From Pyxidicoccus trucidator (GTDB taxonomy: Bacteria; Myxococcota; Myxococcia; Myxococcales; Myxococcaceae): a stretch of 64,000 nucleotides of DNA. Each line of letters starts with the position of its first letter. Position 1 is the first letter of the stretch. Under the pieces are notes generated by a model that made no database searches, was not told the DNA's origin, and saw only the letters and a program-made list of their open reading frames with translations. The translations under genes and the position numbers were made by a program. This document shows positions 32,832 to 43,859 of the stretch, in pieces. The DNA is taken from positions 1 to 64,000 of the forward strand of contig NZ_JAAIXZ010000013.1 in the NCBI RefSeq assembly GCF_010894435.1, written 5' to 3'.

Positions 32832-33296
32832 TCAGACGCCGGGCCGGGGGATGAGCGGGCCGCCCACCTGGCCGCTGCTCAACGAGACGAAGTCCGTATC
32901 GGTGCCCGGGTCCTGCGCGATGACACGGAGGTCCTCGGCAATCCGCGCGTTCAGCAGGTCCAGGTCGCCGCGGCTCTTTTCGCCAGACACGTAGAACATC
33001 AGGCACTGCGAGCGCAGGTCGAAGCCGAACGCGAGGAAGGCATCCGCATCCGCCGGGTCGGTGACGACGAAGGTGTACGCGCTGAGCAGCTGGGACGTGG
33101 CCGGGTAGAGGGCGCCGCCCGGGGCCAGGCTGGCGATGGGAGTCGGCTCGGGGGACACCCCGGCCGGTGCGACGGAGAGGCCGCCAGCGCAGGGGGTGGA
33201 CATCAACCAGCGGCTGCCCTCGTCGATGGGGTCGAAGGCGAAGGCGGCGGTGGGCACGGCGAAGGCCAGCAGCAAGGCATGACGGATGGGCTTCAT
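32832..33296 (-). CDS. Secreted protein of unknown function (shortened paralogue)
   Basis: A 154-aa protein with a Sec signal (MKPIRHALLLAFAVPTAAFA) but no lipobox. It is a diverged tandem copy of the gene at 33418: both share YPT(S/G)(Q/A)...LRSAY-like, VTDPA...AFGFD, FYVSG and SGQVGGP(L/I)(I/L)P(R/Q)PGV. This copy stops right after PGV, lacking the last 20 residues of the paralogue, and lost the lipidation Cys. Function unknown. Confidence 0.72.
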   Translation of the reverse strand: MKPIRHALLLAFAVPTAAFAFDPIDEGSRWLMSTPCAGGLSVAPAGVSPEPTPIASLAPGGALYPATSQLLSAYTFVVTDPADADAFLAFGFDLRSQCLMFYVSGEKSRGDLDLLNARIAEDLRVIAQDPGTDTDFVSLSSGQVGGPLIPRPGV

Positions 33297-33375: not shown

Positions 33376-33420
33376 GCGTGCTGGCGGACGTGTTCCGGCT
33401 GTTCTGAAGGCCCGCGCTCA
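33376..33420 (+). repeat. Duplicated 3' end of the DUF3616 gene
   Basis: These 45 bp repeat 32752-32796 with a single difference and include the last nine codons and stop of the DUF3616 gene (VLADVFRLF then TGA). The offset is 624 bp. The fragment marks the join of a tandem duplication that also copied the neighbouring minus-strand gene and its promoter. The TCA in its end also serves as the stop of the gene at 33418. Confidence 0.9.
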
Positions 33421-33987
33421 CCGCATGTAGAGCTGCATCTGGTAGGTGTTGTTCCACGCCACCTTCCACGCGCCCTCGTGGACACCGGGCTGCGGGAGGA
33501 TGGGTCCCCCCACCTGGCCGCTCATGCCCCACGAGAAGCTGGAGTCGGTGCCGGTGTCCTGCTCCAGGTTGTCGAGGTCGGTGGCGAGCTTGATGAGCAG
33601 CAGGCGCAGCTCGCGCGCGTTCTGGCCGGATACATAGAACACCTGGCGCTGGGCCTTCACGTCGAACCCGAACGCCAGCCAGCTTCCCGACGGGCTGGCC
33701 GGGTCCGTCACGATGACGGTGTACGCGCTGCGCAGGCCGGCGCCCGTCGGATACAGCGGCGACGTGTCATAGGAGGACAAGGGCGTGGGGCGGCTGGTGG
33801 ACGAGCCCGGCGCGGCGGGGATGCTGCTGGGGCAGTAGTTGGGGATGGGGGGCGGCGGCGTGGTGGTGGCCGCCTGCGACTGCGCGTCCATCTCAGCCGA
33901 CTCCATCTGGGCCAGGTCCGGGTCGACGTTGCAGGCGGTGGCGGACAGGGCGAAGGCGGCAAGCAGCGAGAAACGGAGGGACTTCAT
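33418..33987 (-). CDS. Lipoprotein of unknown function
   Basis: A 189-aa predicted lipoprotein: MKSLRFSLLAAFALSATAC with lipidation at Cys19, followed by a Thr/Pro-rich linker. The mature domain (TPLSSYDTSPLYPTGAGLRSAYTVIVTDPA...) is shared with the gene at 32832, its diverged tandem copy. It has a 20-residue C-terminal extension with several Trp and Tyr (HEGAWKVAWNNTYQMQLYMR). The upstream sequences of the two paralogues are also related (GACCTCGGT...AAGGGTGA). Function unknown. Confidence 0.75.
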   Translation of the reverse strand: MKSLRFSLLAAFALSATACNVDPDLAQMESAEMDAQSQAATTTPPPPIPNYCPSSIPAAPGSSTSRPTPLSSYDTSPLYPTGAGLRSAYTVIVTDPASPSGSWLAFGFDVKAQRQVFYVSGQNARELRLLLIKLATDLDNLEQDTGTDSSFSWGMSGQVGGPILPQPGVHEGAWKVAWNNTYQMQLYMR

Positions 33988-34092: not shown

Positions 34093-37089
34093 CTATTCGA
34101 AGACGACCACGGTCTTCACCCAGCTGTCGGGGCGTGCCGCGAGGGCCCGCATGCGCTCGTCCCGGAGCGCGATGGCGGCGGGGGCACCGGCGCGGATGCG
34201 CTCCATGACGCGCTCGAAGAAGGGCCCGGCCTCGGCGTCCGGGATGTCGATGGGAGAGGCGAGGACGGCGCGCGCGCCCGCCTCCGCGAAGGCGATGGGG
34301 AGACTCCACGGCGCGTGGAGATAGGGCGCGGTGCGCGCGGCCCGGCAGGCGCCGAGCACCACCACCGGTGCGCCCTTGAGCTTCTGCCGCCGCACCTCGC
34401 CCGCGGTGAGGGCATAGCGGCCGTCCGTCTCCGGGGCCATCACCAGCAGCGACGCGTCCGACACGCCGAGGTTCACCAGGCCGTGCGCGTGGATTTCCAC
34501 CTCGGTGGCGTCCACCAGCTCCGCCAGCAGTCGCGACGGCGTGGCCGCGGCGCCCGTCAGCTCCACCCGGCGGGCCGAGGCCGCGCCCGACAGCTCCCAG
34601 CCGCGCAGCCGGGGCAGGTTCAGCGAGGCCGGCGCCTCAACGTCGTGCACCACCAGGGGCCGCGGGGCCGTCACCGCCGGCGCCATCCGCTTCGCGCCCG
34701 TGTGGTAACTCCAGGCCAGCTCCGGCGGCAGCAGCCCCGCCTGCCCGTGGACGGCGTAGCGGGCGAAGACGCGCACGTGCTCGCAGGGCTTCAGCGCCCC
34801 CACCATCGCCTCCGGCACCAGCTTCTTCACGTCGAAGTCCGGCGAGCGGCGGCTCGCGTCGTAGTGGCCCAGCAGGTCCCCACCCGGCCCGCGCGCCACC
34901 ACCAGGGTGCGCTCGTCGTGCACCTCCACGCCCAGCTCGCACCGCTCCGGCGTCCCGGCGCCGGACTCCTCCGCGAAGAGGGAGAGCGCCCCGGCCCAGT
35001 CCCGCGCCCTGCCCGCGTCGAGGATGAGCGACGAGTAGCTGTACGCGCGTGCCTTCCAGGCCACCGGGTCCTCGGAGCCCAGCCGGTTGCCCTCGGCGAT
35101 GGCCTGGCGCAGCAGCGCGCGGCCCGCTTCACGCTCCCGCTCGATGACGGCGCGGCCCTCGACATGGGTGGCGAGCACGCGCTCCCCGGGGCGCAGCAGG
35201 CCGGAAGCCTCCAGCTTGCGCAGGCCGTCGCGCAGCGCCTCCACGTCGCCCGGGCGAGGGTCCAGCCGGGCCAGGTCCGCCTGCACGAAGGCGCCGTTGA
35301 TGAAGAAGGGCACGTCACACGCGGGGGCGTGCTCCAGCTCTTCGCGCGCCTCCTTCGGATGCAGGGCGAAGACCTGCATCGCCGCCAGCCCCTCCTGCAC
35401 CTGACGCCGGGCGGCGCACCGGCCATCCCGCGCGGCCTGCTCGCCCAGGTACGCCCGGGCCAGCGCGAAGGCGTTGCGGTAGCGCGCCACGTTGCCCAGC
35501 ACCATCAGCAGGTCCGACTGCTGCATCCACTCCTGCCCCTGCCGCGCCACCTGGAGGCCCGCCACCGCGTGCTCGCGCGCCTCCACCAGCCGGTGCTCCT
35601 CCGTGTAGATGTGGGCGAGCACGTATTCCATCTGCCCGCAGCGGTAGGCCGCCTTCGCCGCGTGGCACTCCGGCAGCGCGCGCAGCAGCCGAGCCTCGGC
35701 GCCCGCCAGGTCCCCGCGCGCATACTCCGCCCGGGCCGCCTCGCGCTCCGCGTTGAGCATGAGCCATGGGTCGCCCACCGCCTTCGCGGCCTTCGTGTAC
35801 TCGGGCAGCCGCGCCGGCAACTGGCCCGTCAGGGGCAACACGCCCAGCAGGATGTCCGAGTGCTCCGAGGCGGCCAGCTCGCGCGCGTACGCGTCCAGCC
35901 CCGAGGCGTCGAAGGTGCCCAGCAACACCTGGCGGAAGCGCTCCGCCAGCGGCCCCCGGCGCTTGAAGTCCAGGCTGGCCACGTGCGAGACGCGGCGCTC
36001 CAGCGCGTCACCGCCGTAGTGCGCATCCAGCAGGCGCGCCAGCGGCAGCAGCGCCTTCACGGCTTCCGCGGACGGGGCCGCCCAGAGGGCCGTGTTGAGG
36101 GCGTTGCGCGCCGAGCCCGGCACCGAGCGCGCCAGCGGCTCCGGAATGAGCGTTCCTTCCAGGGCCAGCGCCTTGCCCGCCTTCTGCGCGTCGTCCCACG
36201 TCCCCCGCTGGCCATCCAGCCGACGGCGCAGGGCCGCCGCGCGCTCCTTCGCCTCCTCCGCCCAGCCCGGCTCACGCAGCGCCGCCACCGCGTCGAACGC
36301 GTCGGCCGCCACCGCGTCCAGGCCCAGCTCCCGCAGCACCAGCGCGCGGTTCCACAGCGCCTCCGGGTGCTGGGGGTGCTTCTCCAGCACGCCGTCCAGC
36401 AGGATGAGGGCCTCTTCCAGCTCCCCCTTCGTCAGCGCCACCACCGCCCTGTCGCTGTCCACGTCCGGCGAGGCCGGCGCGCGCTGGAGGTACTCCGCGG
36501 CCTGCTCCCCCTCGCCGCGCAGCAGGTGCCCCGTGGCCAGGCCGTGGAGGTCCCCCGCCTCCTCCAGCTTCGCCAGCTCCCGCAGCGGCACCAGTTCCCT
36601 GGGGCGCTCGTCGCCGGAGCGCAGCACGCCGTAGGGCCGATGCGCGCTGGCGCCGTCCCAGCTCAGCCGCGCCTCCAGCGAGCGCGTGGGCGCCAGGGCC
36701 AGCACGTTCTGCCCCGACTCCACTCCCGGCAGGCCCGGCCCGCGGAACACCACCAGGACCAGCACGGCCGCGAGCGAGCCCGTCAGTGCAACGGCCGCCA
36801 CCAGGTTGCGCCGGCGGCTCCAGGCGGGACGAAAGGCCCGCGAGGGCGCGGCGTCGCGGGAGGGCATTCCCCCCGGCTGCGAGGGCCGCGCGACTTCGGC
36901 CTCCTTCGCCTCCACCTCCGCCAGCCGCCCCCCGAGCGCCTGGAGCTGGAGGATGTCTTCCAGGTCGGACTGGCACTGCGTGCACGTGCCCAGGTGGACG
37001 CGGAAGGTGTCCGCCTCCTCCGGGGACAGCTCGCCGTCCGCGAAGGCCTGGACCTGGTCGTGGATGTCCATGGGCTCCAGCGCGCTCAT
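34093..37089 (-). CDS. Membrane anti-sigma factor with TPR and CHAT domains
   Basis: A 998-aa protein. Residues about 10-45 form a zinc-binding anti-sigma domain (H32-x3-C36-x2-C39 in HLGTCTQC). A single membrane helix follows (about 95-115). Residues about 165-600 carry helical TPR-like repeats (EEALILLDGVLEKHPQHPEALWNRALVLRELG). The C-terminus is a CHAT caspase-like domain with catalytic His869 in EIHAHGLVN and Cys915 in VVLGACRAAR. If the N-terminus is cytoplasmic, the CHAT domain lies in the periplasm. The ATG overlaps the ECF sigma stop (ATGA), so the two are made together. Likely holds the sigma factor until a signal or proteolysis frees it; the protease role is inferred. Confidence 0.88.
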   Translation of the reverse strand: MSALEPMDIHDQVQAFADGELSPEEADTFRVHLGTCTQCQSDLEDILQLQALGGRLAEVEAKEAEVARPSQPGGMPSRDAAPSRAFRPAWSRRRNLVAAVALTGSLAAVLVLVVFRGPGLPGVESGQNVLALAPTRSLEARLSWDGASAHRPYGVLRSGDERPRELVPLRELAKLEEAGDLHGLATGHLLRGEGEQAAEYLQRAPASPDVDSDRAVVALTKGELEEALILLDGVLEKHPQHPEALWNRALVLRELGLDAVAADAFDAVAALREPGWAEEAKERAAALRRRLDGQRGTWDDAQKAGKALALEGTLIPEPLARSVPGSARNALNTALWAAPSAEAVKALLPLARLLDAHYGGDALERRVSHVASLDFKRRGPLAERFRQVLLGTFDASGLDAYARELAASEHSDILLGVLPLTGQLPARLPEYTKAAKAVGDPWLMLNAEREAARAEYARGDLAGAEARLLRALPECHAAKAAYRCGQMEYVLAHIYTEEHRLVEAREHAVAGLQVARQGQEWMQQSDLLMVLGNVARYRNAFALARAYLGEQAARDGRCAARRQVQEGLAAMQVFALHPKEAREELEHAPACDVPFFINGAFVQADLARLDPRPGDVEALRDGLRKLEASGLLRPGERVLATHVEGRAVIEREREAGRALLRQAIAEGNRLGSEDPVAWKARAYSYSSLILDAGRARDWAGALSLFAEESGAGTPERCELGVEVHDERTLVVARGPGGDLLGHYDASRRSPDFDVKKLVPEAMVGALKPCEHVRVFARYAVHGQAGLLPPELAWSYHTGAKRMAPAVTAPRPLVVHDVEAPASLNLPRLRGWELSGAASARRVELTGAAATPSRLLAELVDATEVEIHAHGLVNLGVSDASLLVMAPETDGRYALTAGEVRRQKLKGAPVVVLGACRAARTAPYLHAPWSLPIAFAEAGARAVLASPIDIPDAEAGPFFERVMERIRAGAPAAIALRDERMRALAARPDSWVKTVVVFE

Positions 37090-37742
37090 GTGCCCTCCGC
37101 CTCGCCCGGGGGCTGGGGCATCAACAGTTCCTTCAGCTTGCGACGCGCGCGGATGAGGCGCGTGCCCACCGTGGCCTTGGGGATGCCCAGGCGCTCGGCG
37201 ATTTCCACATACGAGCGGTTCTCCAGCGCGTGGAGCCGGTACACCGTGCGGAACTCCTCCGGAATCTTCTCCAGCGCCTCGCGCAGCTGCTCCGGGCTGA
37301 TGGAGGCCCACGCCGGGGCGGCCTCCACCTCGGGCGCGGCGATGCGCTCCTCCATGTCCTCGGCGGACACGTCCGCGCGGCGCTCCCGGGTGCGCGAGCG
37401 GCACCGGTCGATGAACAGGTGGTGGAGGATGGTGAGCAGCCACGCGCGCCCGTCCGTCCCCACCTTGTACCGGGCCAGGTTGCGCAGACCGCGTTCGAAG
37501 GTGTCCTGGACGAGGTCCCGGGCGTCGGTGGCATTCCCACACAGGCGCATGGCGGTGGCATGCAGCGCCGCCTCATGCTCCCGGGCGAATGCCGCGAACC
37601 ACCGGCTGTCCAGGGTCGGCGATGAAAGGGGCCTGCTTTCCACTCGGGGTGCAGGCTGACCCGTCCCGTCCTTGCCCGTCAAGCTCCGCGACAGCAGGGA
37701 GCCGGAGAAGAGAGAGGATGGTTGCAGGGCGAAAGCGTCCAT
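37086..37742 (-). CDS. ECF sigma factor
   Basis: A 218-aa sigma-70-family ECF factor. Region 2 is DARDLVQDTFERGLRNLARYKVGTDGRAWLLTILHHLFIDRCRSRTRERR (about residues 72-121); region 4 is LEKIPEEFRTVYRLHALENRSYVEIAERLGIPKATVGTRLIRARRKLKELL. Its gene ends in the ATGA overlap that starts the CHAT anti-sigma gene. A 45-residue N-terminal extension precedes region 2. It should recruit RNA polymerase to stress or envelope genes when released. Confidence 0.93.
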   Translation of the reverse strand: MDAFALQPSSLFSGSLLSRSLTGKDGTGQPAPRVESRPLSSPTLDSRWFAAFAREHEAALHATAMRLCGNATDARDLVQDTFERGLRNLARYKVGTDGRAWLLTILHHLFIDRCRSRTRERRADVSAEDMEERIAAPEVEAAPAWASISPEQLREALEKIPEEFRTVYRLHALENRSYVEIAERLGIPKATVGTRLIRARRKLKELLMPQPPGEAEGT

Positions 37743-37886
37743 GGCGGTCGCTCTCTCAACGACACCCCCCTCCCATCTTCCCGGGGAGGATTTTTCCGAG
37801 CATTTTCCGCCCTCCGTGCGGGCAGCCGGACGGGCGCTCCAGGAGCCCGCTCCCGTCGAGGGGACTGGCGGGTGTCCCGCCCGGGC

Positions 37887-38435
37887 CTACGCGTTGCGGC
37901 GGACGATTTCGGCGTTCAGCACGTTGGCGAAGCCCACCCAGGCCAGGTAGGGCGCCACCAGCCACGCGGCGGGGCGGTCCACGTTGCGGGTGGTGGCGAC
38001 ATAGGCGCCGATGCTCCCCAGCAGCGCGGCGTTGTCCGCCAGCGCCCGGCGCGGCTGCTGCTTGCCGAAAAAGAGCCAGGACCAGGCGGCGTTGAGGCCC
38101 AGCTGCACGCCCCACCAGGCCAGCGCCTTCGAGCGGGACGCCCCCGCGGGCGCCGTCCACACGCGCCAGCCGGAGATGGCGATGAGGCCGTACAGCACCG
38201 TCCACACCGGGGCGAAGACCTTGGGCGGGGGCTGGAAGGAAGGCTTGCTCAGGCGCCTGAACCAGAGCGAGTCCGCGGAGCTCTGTCGCCCGCCAAACAC
38301 CGCCGCGCCCAGGGTGAGCGCGCCGAAGGTGCCCAGCGCCACCACCGACTCGGTGCGCAGCGTGGGGTTGAGGGCCGTGCGCTTCACGGGGCCCGGCACC
38401 GTCCGAGTCGTCGGCTCCAGCGTCGTCGGTTCCAT
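37887..38435 (-). CDS. tspO: TspO/MBR family membrane protein
   Basis: A 182-aa membrane protein of the tryptophan-rich sensory protein / mitochondrial benzodiazepine receptor family. The signature KPSFQPPPKVFAPVWTVLYGLIAISGWRVW and the C-terminal LAWVGFANVLNAEIVRRN are conserved, with five hydrophobic segments. The N-terminal 30 residues are Thr/Pro-rich. TspO proteins bind porphyrins and related molecules and act in stress sensing. Divergent from the DUF924 gene. Confidence 0.88.
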   Translation of the reverse strand: MEPTTLEPTTRTVPGPVKRTALNPTLRTESVVALGTFGALTLGAAVFGGRQSSADSLWFRRLSKPSFQPPPKVFAPVWTVLYGLIAISGWRVWTAPAGASRSKALAWWGVQLGLNAAWSWLFFGKQQPRRALADNAALLGSIGAYVATTRNVDRPAAWLVAPYLAWVGFANVLNAEIVRRNA

Positions 38436-41435: not shown

Positions 41436-43859
41436 GTGGCAGGCGAGCGCTGGAAATTGATGCGGTTGCGGTGGCGCAACCACTGGCGGCTGATGCTGGG
41501 CGTGGCGGTGCTGGCCACCACGCTCGCGGCCGTCTGCGAGTGGCTGGGCGACACGCTGGGCGGCTGGCTGGAAGAGGCCGAGCGCGGCGCCTACGACAAG
41601 ACTGTCACCAGCTTCACCGCGGGCCGCGAGAAGTCGCCGCGGGTGGTGGTGCTGGCCATCGACCAGCCGAGCCTGGACGGCATCCGCGCCAACCCGCAGT
41701 ACGCGCGCAACTTCGGCAACTGGCCCTACAGCCGGAACCTGTGGGCGCGCATCGTGGAGCAGCTCGAGGCCGAGGGCGCCCGCGCCATCGTCTTCGACGC
41801 TGTGATGGACGAGCGCTCCACGGACCCCGCCATGGACCTGGCCTTCGCGCAGGTGCTGCGCGACACACGGGTGCCCTTCTTCCTGGGCGTGTCCACCCAT
41901 GCGGAGGCAAAGCCCCTGCCCCGCGCGGACTTCAGCACCCCGCTGTCCGAGCCGGGCGCGCCGCCTTCACCTGGCGCCGCGCCCGTGGCCTCGGCCGAGG
42001 ACGGGCTGCCCGCCGAGGCCCTGCCCTCCACGGACGACACCGGCGAGTTCCCCGAGGAGGGCGCGACGGACGAGTTCCAGGACACGGAGGACGCGGACGC
42101 CTTTCCGCCCGTCTCGCCCGAGCTGATGGCGCGCGCCCTGGCCTTCCCGGTGCGCGCGGAGGGCCACGCGGTGGTGCTGCTGGCCCACGAGTCCGTGGAC
42201 GGAGTGAAGGAGCCGCTCTACCCGGTGCCTCCCATCCCCGCGCTGGTGGGGGCCATGGACGGCTTCGGGCTGGTGGACCATGAGACGGACCCGGACGGGT
42301 TCATGCGGCGCACGCGCTTCGTGTACACGGACGGCGTCAACACGTACCCGACGCTGCCGGTGCGGGTGGCGGCGGGCGTGCTGGGCGCGAGCGAGGTGGT
42401 GCTGTCCGGGCGCACGCTGCGGCTGGGCACGCGCACGTACGCGGTGGACGCGGAGGGCGGCACGGGCATCGACTACGGCGGCGAGTTCCACGAGCGCTTC
42501 AACCTGGTGTCGCTCATCAAGGTCCTGGACGCCTGGGCGCTGCGCAACCAGGGCCAGCCCACGGGGCTGCCGCCGGGCCTCTTCCAGGACAAGGTGGTGG
42601 TCATCGGCGGCAACGCGGTGGGGCTCAACGACGTGAAGGCCACGCCCTTCTCCCCCGCCGAGCCCGGCGTGGTGAAGCAGGCGGTGGTGCTGGACTCGCT
42701 GCTGGGCGACGGCCGCTTCCTGGCCCAGGCGCCCTTGTGGATGAGCCTCGCGCTGGTCTTCCTCGTGGCGCTCACGTCCGTGGTGCTGCTGATGACGACG
42801 CGGTGGACGCCGCTGGAGATTGCCTGGCCGCTGGCGCTCTACCTCGGCATGCACTTCGTGACGGGCCCCATCCTCGCGAAGACGGGGACGTACCTGCTCA
42901 CCGCCCTGCCCTCGCTGGCGGGCATGCTGGCCAGCGTGGCCGCGGTGGCCTTCAACCACCTGGTGGCCAACAAGGAGGCGGAGTTCATCCGCCAGGCCTT
43001 CAGCCGCTTCATGGAGCCGAAGCTCGTGGAGCAGATGATTTCCGAGCGCGCGCTGCCCCGGCTGGACGGGGAGAATGTCGAAATCACCGCCTTCTTCAGC
43101 GACATCCGCGGCTTCTCCACCTTCAGCGAGCGCTTCAAGGACGACCCGCGCAACCTGGTCCGCATCCTCAACACGTATCTGACGCGAGTGAGCGGAGCGC
43201 TGCTGAAGGAGGGGGCGTGCCTGGACAAGTACATCGGCGACGCGGTGGTGTGCCTCTTCGGCGCGCCCATGCGCCAGGCGGACCACGCGCTGCGCGGCTG
43301 CCGGGGGGCACTGGCGGCGAAGGCGGAGGTGGACCGGCTGCGCGCGGAGTTCAGCGCGCAGGGGATGCCGGACGTGTACACGCGCATCGGCGTCAACACC
43401 GCGGTGAACTTCGTGGGCAACTTCGGCAGCGAGCAGCTCTTCAGCTACACGGCCATCGGCGACGGGATGAACCTGGCCGCGCGGCTGGAGGGCGCGAACA
43501 AGGCGTATGGCTCGGTCATCATGATTGGCCCCCGCACGTACGAGCTGGCGAAGGAGCACATCGAGACGCGGGAGCTGGACCGGGTGCGCGTGGCGGGCAA
43601 GACGGAGGCCGTCACGGTGTACGAGCTGCTGGCGCTCAAGGGCGGCCTGGACGCGCGCAAGCGGGTGACGGTGGAGCGCTACCACGAGGCGCTGGCGCTC
43701 TACCGCGCGGCGCGCTTCGAGGAGGCCGCGGCGGTGCTGGAGGCACGACGGTTGGAGGACCCGGAGGACGGGCCCACGCAGGCGCTGCTGGAGCGCTGCC
43801 ACAAGTACGCCAAGACGCCCCCGCCGGAGTTCGACGGGGTGGCGAGCCTGGACAAGTGA
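41436..43859 (+). CDS. CHASE2-domain class III adenylate cyclase
   Basis: An 807-aa receptor-type cyclase. TM1 (about 17-35) is followed by an extracytoplasmic CHASE2 domain that is split by a long acidic Pro/Glu/Asp-rich insertion (about residues 165-235). Three membrane helices (about 430-510) lead to the catalytic domain. Metal Asp556 (FFSDIRGFSTF) and Asp602 (YIGDAVVCLFG) are present. Lys598 and Thr672 (YTAIGD) match the ATP-selecting residues of class IIIb adenylate cyclases. The C-terminal tail looks helical. The GTG at 41436 follows AAGAGGGGG. Confidence 0.9.
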   Translation: MAGERWKLMRLRWRNHWRLMLGVAVLATTLAAVCEWLGDTLGGWLEEAERGAYDKTVTSFTAGREKSPRVVVLAIDQPSLDGIRANPQYARNFGNWPYSRNLWARIVEQLEAEGARAIVFDAVMDERSTDPAMDLAFAQVLRDTRVPFFLGVSTHAEAKPLPRADFSTPLSEPGAPPSPGAAPVASAEDGLPAEALPSTDDTGEFPEEGATDEFQDTEDADAFPPVSPELMARALAFPVRAEGHAVVLLAHESVDGVKEPLYPVPPIPALVGAMDGFGLVDHETDPDGFMRRTRFVYTDGVNTYPTLPVRVAAGVLGASEVVLSGRTLRLGTRTYAVDAEGGTGIDYGGEFHERFNLVSLIKVLDAWALRNQGQPTGLPPGLFQDKVVVIGGNAVGLNDVKATPFSPAEPGVVKQAVVLDSLLGDGRFLAQAPLWMSLALVFLVALTSVVLLMTTRWTPLEIAWPLALYLGMHFVTGPILAKTGTYLLTALPSLAGMLASVAAVAFNHLVANKEAEFIRQAFSRFMEPKLVEQMISERALPRLDGENVEITAFFSDIRGFSTFSERFKDDPRNLVRILNTYLTRVSGALLKEGACLDKYIGDAVVCLFGAPMRQADHALRGCRGALAAKAEVDRLRAEFSAQGMPDVYTRIGVNTAVNFVGNFGSEQLFSYTAIGDGMNLAARLEGANKAYGSVIMIGPRTYELAKEHIETRELDRVRVAGKTEAVTVYELLALKGGLDARKRVTVERYHEALALYRAARFEEAAAVLEARRLEDPEDGPTQALLERCHKYAKTPPPEFDGVASLDK

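Follow-up and report, generated by a model that had tools for sequence, protein, structure and literature searches.

The window, a stretch of 64,000 nucleotides from the soil myxobacterium Pyxidicoccus trucidator (contig NZ_JAAIXZ010000013.1 of RefSeq assembly GCF_010894435.1, positions 1 to 64,000), encodes on its reverse strand an ECF sigma factor followed by a transmembrane anti-sigma factor (Table 1). The two genes had been annotated as coupled, and this was confirmed at 37086-37089, where they share an ATGA overlap (GGCACATGAGC, read from the window). The anti-sigma factor was found at 74-89% identity over residues 1-998 in 12 other genomes of the genus and, because these carry it at full length, the architecture is not due to chance. 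An orthologue of the sigma factor is present in 14 of 27 genomes of the genus, this one counted. Directly downstream of the anti-sigma gene, beyond the coordinates of the initial annotation, lie a conserved companion gene and a second copy of it; the second copy is 46% identical to the first and matches the companion HMM with an E-value of 3.4e-28.

Table 1. Features of the sigma/anti-sigma operon and the adjoining companion genes
Feature	Position	Strand	Details
Predicted sigma-recognised promoter, CGGGAAGAT-N13-CGTT	37758-37783	-	ends 15 nt before sigma ATG
ECF sigma factor	37086-37742	-	218 aa; Pfam Sigma70_r2 6.7e-15, r4_2 3.3e-14
Transmembrane anti-sigma factor, DdvA family	34093-37089	-	998 aa, ATG at 37089
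Zinc anti-sigma domain, residues 8-40 (H32, C36, C39)	36970-37068	-	Pfam zf-HC2 1.8e-08
Membrane helix, residues 96-114, predicted N-terminus inside	36748-36804	-	mean hydropathy 2.7; sole strongly hydrophobic segment
TPR-like alpha-solenoid, residues 169-709, cysteine pairs 475/484 and 558/591	34963-36585	-	
CHAT domain, residues about 717-998, cysteines 717/769	34096-34941	-	Pfam CHAT 802-986, 5.6e-17
His869, predicted catalytic	34483-34485	-	aligned to DdvA H862
Cys915, predicted catalytic	34345-34347	-	aligned to DdvA C907
Companion lipoprotein, 189 aa	33418-33987	-	lipobox-like LSATAC by eye; no Pfam match
Second, shorter companion copy, 154 aa	32832-33296	-	signal-peptide-like N-terminus, lipobox absent (by eye)

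The residues singled out by the initial annotation (H32/C36/C39, His869, and Cys915) were found at their assigned positions in the translation, and Pfam, hydropathy, and the AlphaFold model agree on a zinc domain, one membrane helix, a TPR-like part, and a CHAT domain. Residues from about 169 to 709 are alpha-helical in the model (mean pLDDT 88.9); the best Pfam TPR match covers residues 213-270 and falls under TPR's own cut-off. Structure prediction had been proposed as a check on the CHAT domain, and the predicted fold matched 8rot_A as well as the proteases Csx29, separase, and gingipain, these three with Z-scores of 16-20. By fold and His/Cys dyad the protein is assigned to the clan CD caspase-like CHAT proteins, with predicted peptidase activity.

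The initial annotation knew of no characterised system with this architecture. It is, however, already known, judging by homology, from DdvA of Myxococcus xanthus (PDB 8ROT, 8RW5, and 8RLZ), which shares the whole layout of zinc domain, single membrane helix, TPR solenoid, and CHAT from one end to the other and has a cryo-EM structure and a sigma gene directly upstream, where the overlap is one base. The cryo-EM entry is titled 'transmembrane anti-sigma factor DdvA', and the title of 8rw5 describes it as dimeric. In a phmmer search residues 11-998 of the window protein matched DdvA 7-991 with an E-value of 1e-123, and 369 of 954 aligned positions (39%) are identical; the PDB entries 8rot and 8rw5 were matched at an E-value of 1e-123 too. 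The model superposed on 8rot_A over residues 121-998 with a Z-score of 45.3 and an rmsd of 4.1 (869 residues aligned, 36% identity). In the alignment with DdvA, H32/C36/C39 pair with the zinc ligands H28/C32/C35 and H869/C915 with the dyad H862/C907, and the DdvA cysteines 470/479/709/763 match the four cysteines that are invariant in the family (below). By full-length homology, domain order, and the upstream sigma gene the window protein is a DdvA-type anti-sigma factor, predicted to inhibit its sigma factor. The setting differs: DdvA lies among CBASS-type genes, whereas a lipoprotein gene comes after the window member, for which a regulon of exported proteins is predicted. For a III-B CRISPR system in M. 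xanthus, control by an ECF sigma/anti-sigma pair has been reported, and we take the pair to be DdvS/DdvA. According to one account, DdvS is active once DdvA is inactivated, and the signal is stated there to be unknown (PMC4374960).

Two further systems, as described in the literature, are related in outline. The Csx29-Csx30-CASP-sigma system (Craspase, type III-E CRISPR) also ties a TPR-CHAT protease to an inhibitor-held sigma factor, and in the fold comparison Csx29 (Z about 20) ranks second only to DdvA. In Craspase the protease, anti-sigma factor, and RNA sensor are separate, whereas the zinc domain and CHAT of the window protein are in one membrane protein. In CalpL-CalpT-CalpS a sigma factor is likewise freed by proteolysis of its anti-sigma factor, but CalpL is a SAVED-Lon protease that is switched on by cA4 and has no CHAT domain. 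A literature search, with subscription journals mostly outside its scope, returned neither a report on the 8ROT structure nor a CHAT-bearing anti-sigma factor among the matches listed, the nearest of which was the Craspase work.

The search for similar zinc-domain proteins beside ECF genes, another proposed check, bore out the association. Among 71 family genes, 54 encode a zinc domain (H, C, and C at three aligned positions) and 17 encode CHAT without one; the 17 include a gene cut by a contig end (L082), whose lack of a zinc domain is thus uninformative and which was excluded from alignment A1. Immediately upstream, 53 of the 54 zinc-domain members have a sigma gene, compared with 0 of the 17 zinc-less ones. 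Cys36 and Cys39 are present in 39/39 rows of A1 having a residue there. The window protein and DdvA fall in separate clades. Ten members are found in the P. trucidator genome itself. CHAT is absent from 6 of the 54 zinc-domain members, whose tie to neighbouring CHAT genes is biased by the fact that most come from loci fetched for such a gene; the search of the P. trucidator genome gave one CHAT-less member, adjoining a zinc-less CHAT gene. At two split loci (L051 and L078) the zinc domain and CHAT are encoded on separate proteins. The dyad is intact in all 65 CHAT-bearing members, even though identity to the window protein is just 41-58% in 48 of the 54 other rows of A1, and this intactness favours catalysis.

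The predicted topology, with CHAT outside the cytoplasm and the sigma-binding part inside, was upheld by two features. The N-terminal side of the helix is richer in Lys and Arg in 37 of 39 zinc-domain members, the two sides being equal in the other 2; in the window protein 5 such residues lie within 15 residues before the helix and 1 after. Among zinc-less members, whose starts are uncertain, a bias placing the N-terminus inside was not found, with more Lys and Arg before the helix in 3 of 16. The second feature is the cysteines. Cys475/484/717/769 occur in 55/55 rows of A1, forming two invariant pairs, and Cys558 and Cys591 co-occur: at the exact A1 columns 48 rows have both, 7 neither, and 0 a single one, and with two columns of slack the figures for 65 members are 54, 11, and 0. 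The invariant and co-occurring pairs therefore support disulfides and an extracytoplasmic CHAT domain. From these features we infer that the CHAT-bearing part is probably outside the cytoplasm.

Upstream of the sigma gene, CGGGAAGATGG and CGTTG with the spacing GGAA-N16-CGTT are present in 10/10 aligned orthologous regions. The exact pattern GGGAAGAT-N12-TCGTT was found in 14/14 genomes of the genus with the sigma factor and 0/13 without it, compared with 0/27 for a reversed-pattern control; the genomes that share the sigma factor and the motif are related, so the 14/13 split does not represent 27 independent events. Carriers of the two tend to have larger genomes. The window alone gave one match, which equals the chance expectation. 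Allowing up to one mismatch, the P. trucidator genome has 14 sites, compared with 3 for the control. Only 6 of the 14 carriers have the exact pattern upstream of the sigma gene itself; the other aligned sigma upstream regions keep CGGGAAGATGG and CGTTG and lack the T before CGTT. Of 42 exact sites examined, 6 lack a coding start within 180 nt; the sole site of one genome (G071) is one of these. Several sites precede exported hydrolases. An exported-like N-terminus, judged by a hydrophobicity rule and credited to a cluster if any member passed, was found downstream of the motif in 12 of 18 non-redundant clusters compared with 104 of 440 background genes (p 1.3e-4). The motif also lies upstream of a zinc-less TPR-CHAT gene of one clade (L043) at 10 of the 11 loci examined, 4 exactly and 6 with one mismatch, a count that leaves out the zinc-less TPR-CHAT relatives in G055, G071, and G079. 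These sites suggest a sigma regulon of mainly exported proteins; the motif could instead belong to a co-inherited factor.

The architecture, the homology to DdvA, the conservation of dyad and cysteines, the order of the genes, and the correspondence of the motif with the sigma factor were computed directly. The conservation of the dyad, the cysteine pairs, the sigma linkage, the companion gene, and the co-occurrence of motif and sigma factor are findings added here. We think it likely that the locus encodes an ECF sigma factor and a DdvA-type transmembrane anti-sigma factor whose extracytoplasmic TPR-CHAT sensor works with a lipoprotein and governs a regulon of exported proteins. In this model the cytoplasmic zinc domain would bind the sigma factor and hold it inactive, one helix would cross the inner membrane, and the disulfide-stabilised TPR-CHAT part outside, probably a dimer as in DdvA, would sense a signal together with the lipoprotein from the next gene. 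Binding by the zinc domain, dimerisation, and the role of the companion in sensing are all predicted here. Once the anti-sigma factor is inactivated, the sigma factor would transcribe the operon that encodes it from a promoter resembling GGGAAGAT-N12-TCGTT. Its other targets would be a further TPR-CHAT protein, which is anchored in the membrane and has no domain for binding sigma, and genes chiefly for exported proteins, of which several are proteases or hydrolases of other kinds. Our preferred guess for CHAT is a true cysteine peptidase acting on the companion or the TPR-CHAT partner, after which sigma binding would be lost through further proteolysis or a conformational change.

The alternatives differ in what CHAT does. 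In the first, which we rate somewhat below an even chance, CHAT cuts other exported proteins, the companion lipoprotein foremost, and a change in the TPR solenoid rather than self-cleavage frees the sigma factor. By HMM search the companion follows 30 of the 65 CHAT genes, whether these have the zinc domain (21/48) or not (9/17), and 0 of the 6 CHAT-less family genes; at L051 and L078 it comes after the CHAT gene and not after the sigma/anti-sigma pair. The other 35 CHAT members, however, have no companion detectable by HMM, and the companion of the DdvA clade has no signal peptide by eye, which is at odds with an extracytoplasmic partner. Of the 43 companion HMM frames, eight are tied to no family gene: six (L105-L110) come from overlapping loci and duplicate, with the same E-values, genes that are counted elsewhere, one (L120) is from a locus fetched for a family match missed by the gene caller, and the remaining one is L051:1675-3528. 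A fold search of the companion model, which is weak (mean pLDDT 56.8), gave no match in the PDB at an E-value of 0.001 or better.

Tentatively, and with slightly more doubt, CHAT might cleave the chain that carries it, or the other chain of the dimer, close to the membrane, with follow-on proteolysis freeing the sigma factor. Such a one-protein switch would fit the universally intact dyad and the fold shared with Csx29, separase, and gingipain, and proteolysis of anti-sigma factors is an established mechanism, the CHAT example being Csx29-Csx30-CASP-sigma. There is also a conserved juxtamembrane stretch at about residues 131-152, with R141 in 55/55 rows of A1. R141 and most of this motif are, however, kept in 9 aligned CHAT-less zinc-domain members and in zinc-less CHAT members, and residues 131-150 are well predicted in the model (block pLDDT 79 and 90), so the motif looks structural. 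As a self-cleavage site it is unsupported, given that CHAT-less members retain it. The 17 CHAT members without zinc domain and upstream sigma gene nevertheless keep the dyad; because these exist alongside 6 zinc-domain members without CHAT, CHAT is not simply a built-in blade for sigma release.

A non-catalytic CHAT domain that binds a ligand or peptide, with site-1 and site-2 proteases freeing the sigma factor as in RseA, seems unlikely. The order sigma factor, membrane anti-sigma factor, exported protein resembles RpoE-RseA-RseB, in which the third is an exported modulator and RseA is not known to have a protease domain of its own. RseA is reported to be cleaved by DegS. The zinc-domain members entirely without CHAT would also fit a sensor of this kind, but retention of both catalytic residues in 65/65 members at such low overall identity argues against it.

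DdvA and the paralogues close to it have SMODS nucleotidyltransferase, SAVED-CHAT, C25 peptidase, E1-E2, and JAB genes as neighbours. In the window, between 26.5 and 43.9 kb, PADLOC gave no match for the anti-sigma factor or for 8 of 10 further proteins, and no CBASS or CRISPR model matched any of the 11; nor, with respect to the Cas7-11 and Csx30 partners that mark Craspase, did PADLOC and Pfam find a CRISPR gene among the proteins nearest the operon. The two matches were a marginal one to the kinase domain of a histidine kinase (1.7e-05) and one of the Pycsar cyclase model (5.4e-20) to only the cyclase domain of a protein about 4 kb away (41460-43859), by Pfam an ordinary CHASE2-guanylate cyclase. 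A defence module controlling CRISPR or CBASS like DdvS/DdvA, to which the genes around DdvA and this cyclase might point, is very improbable here given the separate clade, these scans, and the exported hydrolases behind several motif sites.

Returning to the preferred model, a more elaborate version, which we regard as possible but doubtful, is a two-layer extracytoplasmic caspase-like circuit. CHAT catalysis would couple sensing to sigma release with the lipoprotein as substrate or brake, and the sigma factor would induce a sigma-blind TPR-CHAT protein with its own lipoprotein together with exported hydrolases; if true, this might serve prey attack or envelope turnover. Several such modules are present in each of dozens of related genomes, and DdvA is the only characterised one found. 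The companion, the split zinc and CHAT proteins, the likely disulfides, and the predicted promoter and its targets make the sensor testable. Caspase-like control of sigma factors, seen in cytoplasmic defence systems, would also be extended to the cell envelope.

Although the initial annotation knew of no characterised system with the architecture of this anti-sigma factor, that view was not borne out. A search of PDB sequences with the window protein matched residues 11-998 to 8rot and 8rw5 (E 1e-123), and the zinc domain matched 8rlz, titled 'Antisigma factor DdvA'. Structure comparison gave Z-scores of 45.3 for 8rot ('Cryo-EM structure of the transmembrane anti-sigma factor DdvA') and 44.9 for 8rw5 ('Symmetry expansion of dimeric transmembrane anti-sigma factor DdvA'). 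The ZAS-TM-TPR-CHAT architecture is not new. The gene encoding the 8rot/8rw5 sequence was found in genome G076 (100% over 534 aa), directly behind a sigma gene. End-to-end alignment of the window protein with DdvA showed 369 of 954 positions to be identical, with the zinc ligands, the CHAT His/Cys dyad and four cysteines coinciding. The window clade lies apart from the DdvA clade in a midpoint-rooted FastTree phylogeny built from 61 sequences aligned over their TPR-CHAT part. The ECF pair that controls the III-B CRISPR system of M. xanthus is presumably DdvS/DdvA. Regulation of that system by an ECF sigma/anti-sigma pair is mentioned in a passage of PMC11237760, which cites Bernal-Bernal 2018.

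The operon and the anti-sigma protein had otherwise been observed correctly and described well. The zinc ligands (H32, C36 and C39) and His869/Cys915 are at the positions specified, and the ATGA overlap is seen at the junction of the sigma and anti-sigma genes. Pfam matched zf-HC2 and CHAT. Structure prediction, suggested for the CHAT domain, gave a confident AlphaFold model (mean pLDDT 88.9, with a value of at least 90 for 744 of 998 residues) containing an alpha-solenoid and the CHAT domain. The window has two copies of the small downstream companion gene; at each orthologous locus examined in other genomes a single copy was found. A TspO/MBR gene lies immediately upstream of the sigma gene on the same strand, and is found in 10 loci of the genus.

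Features of the window operon and its surroundings
Feature	Position	Strand	Remark
ECF sigma gene	37086-37742	minus	
Anti-sigma gene	34093-37089	minus	998 aa; start overlaps sigma stop codon
Companion, first copy	33418-33987	minus	small exported-looking protein
Companion, second copy	32832-33296	minus	shorter; also exported-looking
TspO/MBR gene	37887-38435	minus	
CHASE2-guanylate cyclase	41460-43859	plus	cyclase domain matches PADLOC Pycsar cyclase model, 5.4e-20

Family members were matched in 70 of 96 genomes in a family-level search (E 0.001) and in 68 of 195 in a phylum-level search (1e-10), 66 of the latter coming from the same taxonomic family and two from another family of the same order. 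The two relatives identified by name are Myxococcus and Pyxidicoccus. The organism's own genome has ten, counting the window's and one without CHAT; two further weak matches there were rejected as other TPR or CHAT proteins. The suggested genome search for zinc-domain-plus-CHAT proteins beside ECF genes yielded 48 of the 71 family genes tallied, all 48 with a sigma gene directly upstream. Six have the zinc domain without CHAT (sigma gene directly upstream in 5/6) and 17 have CHAT without the zinc domain (0/17), L082 among these being truncated by a contig end. At the split loci L051/L078 and L048/L087/L123/L124/L125, a zinc-less TPR-CHAT gene is close to a CHAT-less anti-sigma gene. On the above tree, presence of the zinc domain requires three changes by parsimony. 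One paralogue group (L045, L084, L086, L089, L090, L093, L095 and L100) has a gene of ~446 aa close downstream, the sole one tested (L045) being an M24-type metallopeptidase. A family of ~320-aa proteins occurs near zinc-less TPR-CHAT genes (L046, L048, L072, L087, L097, L098 and L102); the sole one tested (L046) matched Cupin_8 (4.1e-07).

Lysine and arginine are more numerous before the membrane helix than after it in 37 of 39 zinc-domain members and equal in two; the bias is absent among zinc-less members (3/16 in the family alignment, A1). Cys475, Cys484, Cys717 and Cys769 are present in 55/55 sequences of A1. Cys558 and Cys591 occur together in 54 of 65 members and are both missing from 11, with neither ever alone, when two columns of slack are allowed; at the exact A1 columns the figures are 48/55 and 7/55. 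These conserved sets are likely disulfides, and because the cysteines are read in this way the TPR-CHAT part would lie outside the cytoplasm. Both residues of the dyad are retained in all 65 CHAT-bearing members, a conservation that argues for CHAT catalysis.

When 9,731 open frames were searched with an HMM for the lipoproteins encoded downstream in the window clade, it recovered its own members and then 12 extra frames to E 0.14 (two genes counted twice in overlapping loci), each immediately following a family gene. Iteration raised the companion frames to 43. With the iterated HMM a companion was found downstream of 30 of 65 CHAT genes (21/48 with the zinc domain, 9/17 without), was not detectable behind the other 35, and was found behind none of six CHAT-less genes. 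The DdvA gene also has one (L117:7926-8273). As judged by eye, companions of the window clade are lipoproteins and those of the DdvA clade lack a signal peptide. The companion is the first candidate for a substrate or brake. A companion-like stretch also occurs inside a long frame with no adjoining CHAT gene (L051:1675-3528, minus strand).

Just 5' of the sigma start, CGGGAAGATGG and CGTTG are common to ten orthologous upstream regions, with the spacing GGAA-N16-CGTT. The loose pattern did not reach significance in the window taken by itself (one match, against 0.89 expected). Of the 27 genus genomes, 14 contain the exact pattern, GGGAAGAT-N12-TCGTT, and none contains its reversed control. Precisely those 14 also have a sigma orthologue (E 1e-45 or better), although the genus genomes are related and the match therefore does not represent 27 independent trials. 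In 6/14 the pattern precedes the sigma gene itself. Downstream DNA was examined for 42 of the 44 exact sites, the other two ending 16 nt before the sigma gene; a coding start within 180 nt was missing at 6/42. An exported-like N-terminus was predicted for 12 of 18 clusters of downstream genes (sigma and TPR-CHAT removed, a few own-genome one-mismatch sites added) versus 104 of 440 background genes (p 1.3e-4). Pfam was run on 17 motif-site proteins, of which 16 are encoded downstream of a site and the other by a second gene. It identified a trypsin-like lipoprotein, an M23 peptidase with BTRD1 repeats, a carbonic anhydrase, a matrixin, a poly-gamma-glutamate hydrolase, a met-zincin, an endonuclease/phosphatase and, as the second gene at its site, an astacin-like protein; one protein matched DUF6345 below its cut-off and eight had no match. 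Ten of the 11 loci examined for the L043 clade also have the motif upstream of the clade's zinc-less TPR-CHAT gene, exactly in G057, G058, G059 and G069 and with one mismatch in G000, G054, G056, G062, G064 and G065; it was not found there in G068.

DdvA is located inside a CBASS-like island: at its locus (L117, 1459-13190) two SMODS nucleotidyltransferases (cyclases), a SAVED-CHAT protein, a C25-like peptidase, E1-E2 and JAB flank DdvS/DdvA. A C25-like peptidase is also found downstream of DdvA-clade paralogues (L047, L049, L118, L119 and L121), a gene set reminiscent of SAVED-CHAT protease cascades, with a CHAT-SAVED gene near L047 and a CHAT-nSTAND1 gene near L049. The order at these five loci is sigma, anti-sigma-CHAT, companion, peptidase, the companion in some being a tandem of two domains. 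Around the window operon, Pfam found an M1 peptidase, a PAS histidine kinase, DUF3616, TspO, DUF924 and the CHASE2-guanylate cyclase; PADLOC matched the kinase (1.7e-05), the cyclase domain and nothing else among the proteins scanned.

Bernal-Bernal and colleagues reportedly suggested that the extracytoplasmic C-terminal domain acts as a sensor. From homology to DdvA and the motif, the zinc domain would hold sigma and, once inhibition is lost, sigma would transcribe its own operon and exported targets; the TPR-CHAT part outside the cytoplasm would sense. The existence of modular splits argues for a role of CHAT beyond the release of sigma. The evidence that merits attention lies at the level of the family, namely the likely disulfides, the companion, the split forms and the predicted regulon.
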